Under the pieces are notes generated by a model, which was not told the DNA's origin, did no database searches, and saw nothing but the letters and a program-made list of their open reading frames with translations. A program made the position numbers and the translations under genes. A stretch of DNA of 62,141 nt from Bacteroidota bacterium. GTDB lineage: Bacteria; Bacteroidota; Bacteroidia; B-17B0; Aurantibacillaceae. Positions 10,407 through 33,989 of the stretch are shown piece after piece (position 1 is the stretch's first letter; each line of letters begins with the position of its first letter). The stretch is taken from positions 1-62,141 of the forward strand of contig JACCXH010000006.1 of the NCBI GenBank assembly GCA_013697245.1, given 5' to 3'.

Positions 10407-10685
10407 GATTTATTTTTATTAATTACTGCTTATTCTCTCAAAATATTATACCAAGTTTTTTTTGATTTTGATCGGGTTTTTTTCGGGAAATCATTCAACT
10501 AGCTATATAAATATGTAGAGAGCTTTCCTCACAATAGGGAAAAGAGAATTACCCTTTAAGGCCATAAACAAGCAAACAGGTTTTTTTTACTTGCATAATT
10601 TTTGCAGTATATCTATTTATAACCAATAGCGTCCTAAACGTTTATAATTAAAAAAAATAAGAGAAAGAATTTAAGTATCTCAAAT

Positions 10686-11890: not shown

Positions 11891-12088
11891 AAAAGTTAAA
11901 TTATGTGTGATTTATGTAATGAAATCAATAGCTTTGTTTGTCTTAAAAAACGTTTAGGACGCTATTGATTATAAATATATAAATCAAAAATAATTCCAGT
12001 CTATTTTCCCTGCAAGCCTTAAATACCTTACTATAAGGCAAAAAAGCCCCTGTTTGGTACAATTTTGTATCTTTAAAATCGTTATAAT

Positions 12089-33050: not shown

Positions 33051-33989
33051 TTAAATCCAATCTATATCCTTTTTCAAAAGGCTTAGCGTCATTTCTTCTT
33101 CCGAATTTTTTTCCGGTTTAAAATCATACTCCCAACCGGCAGTTTTTGGCAAACTCATTAAAATTGATTCTACACGGCCATTAGTTTCCAAACCAAATTT
33201 TGTGCCTTTGTCATAGATTAAATTAAACTCTACATAACGGCCACGACGAAGTAATTGCCAGTCCTTATTTTTTTCAGTAAAAGATTTATGTTTATTTCTG
33301 GTGATGAGTTCGGTATAAGTAGGCGCAAATGCTTTTCCAACATCCTGCCAAAAAGCAAAGTTCTTTTCAAAATTCATATTACCTTCTGTATTTAAGCGGT
33401 CAAAAAATATACCGCCAATGCCGCGGGTTTCTTTTCGGTGACTGATATAAAAATAATCGTCGGCCCACTTTTTAAATTTCGAATAATAATCTTTATGATG
33501 TTTATCACAAAGGTTTTTTAATTGTGAATGAAAAAAAATAGCGTCATCATCAAAAATATAATGTGGTGTCAGGTCAATACCTCCACCTAACCATTTAACA
33601 CCACCATCCATTTCAAAATAACGGATGTTCATGTGAATAATAGGCACCATTGGGTTTTTTGGATGAATAACAATGGAAACGCCCGTTGCAAAAAATTGAG
33701 GCCGAATGCTAAACTCCCTCTCCTCTGGAGAGGGCTGGGGTGAGGCTGAATGTGCACTCTCTTTAAATAAAAAATCGGGCGTATCGCCACTAACAGCACT
33801 AAATAATACTCCGCCTTTTTCAATTATATTTCCTTCTTTAATAATGCGGGTTCTGCCACCACCGCCTTCTTTGCGGATCCAGTTCTCTTCTTCAAATTTC
33901 GATCCTCCATCTGCATTTTCTAACGAAAGGCAAATAGCATCTTGTAAATTCTTTAACCATTCAGAAATGGTTTCTTTATTTATTTCCAT
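33051..33989 (-). CDS. hemF: Oxygen-dependent coproporphyrinogen III oxidase with in-frame repeat insertion
   Basis: 312 residues. Family blocks include the Gly-rich GGGGRTRIIKEG (loop ~43-53), VIHPKNPMVPIIHMNIRYF (~107-125), GGGIDLTPHYIF and RGRYVEFNLIYDKGTKFGL. The enzyme oxidatively decarboxylates coproporphyrinogen III to protoporphyrinogen IX in haem synthesis. Residues about 80-96 (SASPQPSPEEREFS) are coded by a palindromic repeat element inserted in frame between two conserved blocks. The ATG lies within the end of the upstream LysM gene (10-bp overlap), so the two are coupled. Confidence 0.93.
   Translation of the reverse strand: MEINKETISEWLKNLQDAICLSLENADGGSKFEEENWIRKEGGGGRTRIIKEGNIIEKGGVLFSAVSGDTPDFLFKESAHSASPQPSPEEREFSIRPQFFATGVSIVIHPKNPMVPIIHMNIRYFEMDGGVKWLGGGIDLTPHYIFDDDAIFFHSQLKNLCDKHHKDYYSKFKKWADDYFYISHRKETRGIGGIFFDRLNTEGNMNFEKNFAFWQDVGKAFAPTYTELITRNKHKSFTEKNKDWQLLRRGRYVEFNLIYDKGTKFGLETNGRVESILMSLPKTAGWEYDFKPEKNSEEEMTLSLLKKDIDWI
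33714..33745. repeat. Palindromic repeat inserted in the hemF coding sequence
   Basis: CCCTCTCC (33716-33723) and GGAGAGGG (33727-33734) are perfect arms around TCT, followed by CTGGGGTGAGG. This string is recalled as a frequent intergenic repeat of Bacteroidota and other bacteria (CCCTCTCC...GGAGAGGGC.GGGGTGAGG). Its reading frame here gives SPQPSPEERE inside HemF without a stop. Confidence 0.75.

Follow-up and report, generated by a model that had tools for sequence, protein, structure and literature searches.

An in-frame hairpin repeat in the hemF gene of a Bacteroidota bacterium as a probable solo copy of a PIT/TM-type element linked to DUF559 nucleases

Main finding

The hemF gene of a Bacteroidota bacterium carries, inside its open reading frame, a 30-nt repeat composed of a perfect hairpin and a mirror tail. 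With a probability of about 70%, we regard it as a solo copy of a PIT/TM-type hairpin-plus-mirror-tail element belonging to a mobile family that joins such hairpins with DUF559 nucleases. The gene lies in the window, the whole analyzed DNA stretch of 62,141 nucleotides, and was compared with the 87 genomes of its family, some of them incomplete.

The repeat within HemF

The minus-strand reading frame at 33,051–33,989 encodes oxygen-dependent coproporphyrinogen oxidase HemF (312 aa), scoring 398.9 bits on the profile NF003727, whose cut-off is 297. The only match to HemN_C in the same genome is weak (23.4 bits, cut-off 24). On the plus strand, positions 33,716–33,745 read CCCTCTCC-TCT-GGAGAGGG-CTG-GGGTGAGG. 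They comprise a hairpin (33,716–33,734) with a pyrimidine arm at 33,716–33,723, a TCT loop and a purine arm at 33,727–33,734, then a CTG linker of three nucleotides (33,735–33,737) and the mirror tail detected by a triplex-motif scan (33,738–33,745). Eleven HemF codons on the minus strand (33,714–33,746) translate this region as ASPQPSPEERE, within the loop that precedes FFATG (...HSASPQPSPEEREFSIRPQFFATG...), and the repeat is stop-free and in frame with the gene. Among 100 shuffles, the highest count of the perfect palindrome was 0. Both the palindrome with its tail and its in-frame location in hemF had been described in a first-pass annotation of this DNA, and both are confirmed here.

The same annotation supposed that the repeat adds about 17 residues, which is not the case: HemF has 312 codons compared with 307–308 in the five nearest hairpin-free relatives, a net gain of only 4–5. 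The hairpin has partly taken the place of an older HemF loop and is not a pure addition. In two other near relatives the HemF match spans 315 codons (G014, with a hairpin) and 321 codons (G034, with none).

A fold prediction for HemF (34-row alignment, mean pLDDT 83.3) places residues 70–97 in a loop flanked by strands 56–69 and 98–110. Mean pLDDT of the ten-residue blocks from 71 to 100 is 61, 55 and 71, and comparably low or lower values are found solely in blocks around 261–280. The model bears out the earlier placement of the repeat in a variable loop.

A comparison with Rfam yielded no identity for the repeat: positions 33,714–33,747 gave a sub-threshold hit of 14.3 bits (threshold 37, E 0.73) against the whole whalefall-1 model. 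The whalefall-1 family might perhaps be a repeat of the same kind.

Two other repeated structures were observed in the window. Inverted arms of 48 nt at 10,610–10,657 and 11,934–11,981, 83% complementary and 1276 nt apart, possibly represent insertion sequence ends; a direct repeat of 231 nt (11–241 and 509–739) has 74% identity.

Mirror tail and triplex-type geometry

The window tail GGGTGAGG is the purine arm read in reverse (GGGAGAGG) with one T opposite A, so that only purine-motif triads occur. As a triplex motif, the repeat has a stem of 8 with 0 mismatches and a linker of 3; a motif of this kind with a stem of at least 7 occurs once in the whole window and 0 times in 40 first-order Markov windows. 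The dispersed copies follow a common rule, by which the tail mirrors the purine arm and T is permitted opposite A. Accordingly, the arm GGAGAGG is accompanied by the tail GGTGAGG, GGAGAAG by GATGAGG, GGGGAAG by GATGGGG or GAAGGGG, GGGGAGAG by GAGAGGGG and GGAAAGG by GATAGG. Arm and tail covary strictly in two of these pairs: 49 GGAGAGG arms have GGTGAGG, 28 GGAGAAG arms have GATGAGG, and there is zero crossing.

Perfect mirrors are present in 102 of 143 hairpins with a G-rich flank, compared with a maximum of 62 in 1000 permutations that ignore the kinship of copies; a tail of a listed type is absent in 50 of the 143. Where the arms are asymmetric (n = 59), the tail is a mirror in 42 cases and a direct copy in 4. 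When palindromes were counted in both orientations, which dilutes the permutation test, the figure was 235 of 554, and permutation gave 177 at most. In nine representative elements, between 3 and 6 of the six reading frames are open.

The geometry of stem and tail is that of purine-motif intrastrand triplexes, and on these grounds the DNA may fold as a triplex. The repeat shares with PIT/TM (class II) elements a perfect hairpin, a purine 3′ arm, a mirror third strand of allowed triads and the dispersal of the unit in multiple copies through the genome.

Dispersal in the genome

The core palindrome CCTCTCCNNNGGAGAGG has 8 copies in the 4.44 Mb genome (reversed control, 0), and a sister type, CTTCTCC/GGAGAAG, has 6 copies in the same genome. 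These counts uphold the earlier suggestion of a dispersed repeat and remove the objection that it might occur nowhere else. When the hairpin was searched together with CTGGGGTGAGG, allowing up to 3 mismatches, the window copy was the only match; the linkers of the other copies are different. Solo in-frame copies were also encountered in RmlB (L206) and ThiD (L203) of relatives.

Across four genomes, 49 copies of three palindromes were examined, of which 10 lie within long reading frames as counted by reading. When perfect stems alone are scanned, 3 of the 49 have another hairpin of this kind no more than 160 nt away; at L003 and L213, an imperfect second hairpin nearby was noticed by eye. The remaining 46 copies lack a near second hairpin in the perfect-stem scan, which suggests that the solo unit may also travel alone. 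We considered the idea that every solo copy is a relic of a two-ended element and dropped it, since solo copies are mostly unpaired. L005 and L209, from two genomes, share one hairpin with similar flanks, and so do L212 and L215; individual copies therefore seem to outlast speciation events.

Recurrent hairpins in the HemF loop

HemF was found in 71 of the 87 family genomes; 70 loci were read, leaving out a fragment, and 69 were aligned after one had been dropped for its short length. A clear hairpin is present in 6 of the 69 genes, always in the same variable loop, and most of the 69 have none. The residues are hence not common to all relatives, which disposes of a further objection to the annotation's claim. 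The six hairpins represent four element types, two orientations and three codon phases. The window copy and L098 belong to the CCTCTC type, with the pyrimidine tail coming first on the coding strand; L106 and L115 are of type CTTCCCC, L121 of type CTTCTCC and L155 of type CTCTCCCC, all four in the opposite orientation to the window and L098. Codon phases of the pyrimidine arm in the six hairpins are 1, 1, 1, 1, 2 and 0. In addition, the L145 hairpin is imperfect, the L111 copy is eroded, and short LGK-type peptides in L107, L108 and L114 may be old hairpin remains. A strict scan over 229,626 bp of HemF loci returned 8 hairpins, and this loop accounts for 5 of the 8 (L121 fails the G+C rule of that scan).

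On a quick HemF tree built with the loop removed, the six hairpins require six changes. A single ancestral insertion is rejected (p-AU 1.2e-6, for a hairpin set chosen from the same sequences). One insertion shared by the window and L098 is compatible with the data (p-AU 0.68), and these two hairpins may stem from one event. Taken together, element type, orientation and codon phase suggest at least four arrivals in the HemF loop. In HemF rows from other families the loop is short and contains no hairpin (11 of 80 loci unplaced).

Alternatively, the HemF stretch might be functional, either as a peptide or as an mRNA hairpin that causes pausing or confers stability, instead of being a tolerated scar. 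In keeping with this, L106 and L115 share the same 19-nt palindrome amid diverged surrounding codons, and the CTTCCCC type (loop 3–4) has just three occurrences across the 87 genomes, two in HemF and the third in HutU. This reading nonetheless seems very improbable to us, as most HemF genes do without a hairpin, L111 is eroded, L107, L108 and L114 have only short peptides that may derive from a hairpin, and the protein loop is a low-confidence region of the model. Ribosome bypass of the insert was considered and seems unlikely: the six clear HemF hairpins stay in frame and stop-free, and a bypassed stretch needs neither.

No DUF559 domain was found inside HemF in the 71 matching family genomes, nor at the class level among the matches listed (193 of 395 genomes match; the longest listed open frame has 345 aa); the order-level search covers the same 87 genomes as the family. 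As none of these HemF matches showed a complete DUF559 insertion, the element is as likely to have arrived there solo as to be a relic.

DUF559 genes bordered by the hairpins

In the LeuRS gene of the relative G014, two inverted hairpin copies flank a DUF559 domain, all in a single open frame. DUF559 has 102 matches in 58 of the 87 family genomes, and the best 70 of the 102, located by a profile search, were analyzed for hairpins. Twenty-nine of these lie in open frames of at least 400 aa and 41 in short frames. The 29 in-frame domains are located in LeuRS at site A (15, including L279) and site B (5, including L263 from the window's own genome), in MetH at site A (3) and site B (3), and in HutU (3), the host enzyme families being confirmed on representatives. 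In G076, both LeuRS sites are filled.

A correctly oriented hairpin lies within 300 nt of 28 of the 29 in-frame inserts, at both ends in 17 of them, and hairpin density around these domains is 2.43 per kb near versus 0.12 per kb far. An oppositely oriented hairpin is also present at 5 of the 29. Among the 41 short-frame domains, the orientation is correct in 13 and opposite in 22, and 11 have no hairpin. At the genome level, 30 of the 32 genomes that carry the CCTCTCC type have DUF559, as do 28 of the 55 that lack the type (Fisher p 3.6e-5; Spearman 0.56; kinship uncorrected); the type occurs without a DUF559 match in two genomes.

The association extends to plasmids of Deinococcota, Cyanobacteriota and Pseudomonadota. 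A strict hairpin was present within 250 nt in 10 of 12 DUF559 genes, hand-picked from 38 records, against 2 of 144 control windows of 820 nt taken from six of the same records; a looser scan found a hairpin at all 12. On a Sphingomonas plasmid (L393), a DUF559 gene sits between transhydrogenase genes and is flanked on either side by hairpins that have no clear mirror tail.

Several sites occur in more than one state. Among 77 LeuRS loci, 14 have a full site A, one (L324) has a hairpin pair there without DUF559, 5 contain other dispersed-looking repeats and 50 show neither, with 7 unscored. The 5 encode the peptides VRHPELVSGSQEMLKQVQHD (HPELVSGS; L342, L346, L358) or FDSAQGD (L331, L349), which we take to be products of other dispersed repeats. 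Site B, in the same number of loci, is full in 5. L266 and L384 each show a clear solo hairpin at this site, and L320 and L332 a weaker one; the fifth locus flagged, L248, is the site A end counted a second time. MetH site A is full in L250, L254 and L259 with a solo hairpin in L237, and the HutU site is full in L268, L271 and L277 with a hairpin pair in L214. The presence of hairpins without nuclease at nuclease sites ties hairpins and DUF559 together.

An explanation in which hairpins have no dedicated mover would attribute their spread to replication slippage, template switching or gene conversion through folding, with the nucleases as bystanders. It can draw on E. coli, where PIT/TM loci are unstable and the motif was not found with mobile elements (PMC4666352). 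We judge it unlikely, because element types with their own mirror tail recur at unrelated sites and hairpins in one orientation bound 28 of the 29 in-frame DUF559 inserts.

Another explanation treats the hairpin as a REP-type unit that owes its movement to a Y1 (HuH) tyrosine transposase (RAYT/TnpA-REP), with DUF559 genes simply gathering beside hairpins. The window's own genome has four Y1_Tnp genes, REPs within genes are documented, and different REPs are described near the same recB site in two Xanthomonas species (PMC3733652). However, all four Y1_Tnp genes adjoin other hairpins, none of the window kind in the loci scanned, and no GTAG/GTGG tag lies 0–2 nt from the foot of the window hairpin on either strand. 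The variation of the tail with the stem and a hairpin–DUF559 link spanning four phyla likewise speak against REP/RAYT, which we consider an improbable source.

Three of these Y1 transposase genes, at L010, L011 and L012, are of the YI..QEEHH type and have their own G/C-rich hairpins adjacent; these flank the gene in L011 and L012 and lie upstream of it in L010. For a similar Y1 class, 1.2, no REPs are listed (PMC6006769).

Proposed mechanism

We hypothesize that a solo hairpin-plus-mirror-tail element inserted into a HemF surface loop, where translation runs straight across it. Hairpins of the same kind also form the ends of insertions carrying a DUF559 nuclease, which is homing-endonuclease-like (EDxHD/Vsr-like); the nearest solved chain to the domain is 3hrl, an endonuclease-like protein. 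The nuclease may cut DNA at hairpins or target loops, or close to them, or be guided by hairpins, and break repair could then copy the whole hairpin/DUF559 unit or single hairpins to new places. Within genes, a frame filter would limit survival to in-frame, stop-free copies in tolerant loops. The role of DUF559 as mover is a putative one, suggested by the arrangement of genes and hairpins, and HemF read-through is deduced from the frame; the SPQPSPEERE stretch would be present in the HemF protein, which presumably retains its activity.

In a broader form, to which we assign about even odds, PIT/TM repeats would represent recognition ends, and also solo derivatives, of widespread non-splicing DUF559 homing elements, with the HemF, LeuRS, MetH and HutU loops as recurrent docking sites. 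Such elements could persist in genes because, under the same proposal, translation of the host enzyme continues across nuclease or hairpin. This suggests a route by which mobile DNA enters conserved enzymes in frame and unspliced, so that the insert is not easily lost except by precise removal. It also carries a warning for annotation, as a short peptide like NPSPKERG within a conserved protein may stem from a read-through repeat and need not be a conserved domain. No intein domain was detected in five DUF559-bearing and five other host proteins (Pfam, E ≤ 1e-5), and 13 pattern matches to DUF559 in viral contigs included no relative.

Comparison with known systems

Rickettsia palindromic elements (RPEs) resemble the HemF repeat in being palindromic repeats translated in frame within genes, and the first-pass annotation named Rickettsia as the best-known case of mobile palindromes that tolerate translation. 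RPE units measure about 100–150 bp and come from another bacterial group; to our knowledge, they have neither a mirror tail nor a DUF559 link. By this description, we set an RPE identity aside on unit size and structure, and the 30-nt unit with its mirror tail places the repeat with PIT/TM instead.

PIT repeats were reportedly described by Hoyne and Maher, and we know of no mover for PIT/TM triplex repeats since their description in 2000. The likeness lies in a hairpin with a purine 3′ arm, short loops, a purine-motif mirror tail and dispersed G/C-rich units. According to Holder et al. 2015 (PMC4666352), the 23 PIT/TM copies of E. coli K-12 are all intergenic and not found with mobile elements, and some form inverted pairs, as here. 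The same source reports triplex formation by TM oligonucleotides in vitro by CD and NMR, an association of PIT/TM with genome instability and in vivo footprinting that did not show a stable triplex. The present repeats differ from these intergenic copies without a mobile gene in lying in frame in conserved enzymes and bordering DUF559. Among the papers listed in searches of a literature that left subscription journals mostly outside, none was seen to link DUF559 with triplex-type repeats.

REP/RAYT systems, with GTAG- and CGTC-tagged repeats, likewise have small palindromes, at times in open reading frames, and transposase genes flanked by their own palindromes (PMC3733652). They differ in the GTAG/GTGG foot tag, absent here, and in the mover, for which the candidate here is DUF559 and not a Y1 transposase.

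DUF559 is assigned to PD-(D/E)XK, Vsr-like nucleases (PMC12907096) and to EDxHD homing endonucleases (PMC9403480, citing Taylor 2011), and DUF559 segments are flagged as recombination hot spots in a study of Legionella evolution (PMC12308824). The inserts described here resemble EDxHD/DUF559 elements in having a PD-(D/E)XK-type domain at fixed sites in conserved genes, with some relatives free of the insert. They differ in having no intein domain (five scanned), in being bounded by triplex-type hairpins and in remaining open in frame with the host enzyme.
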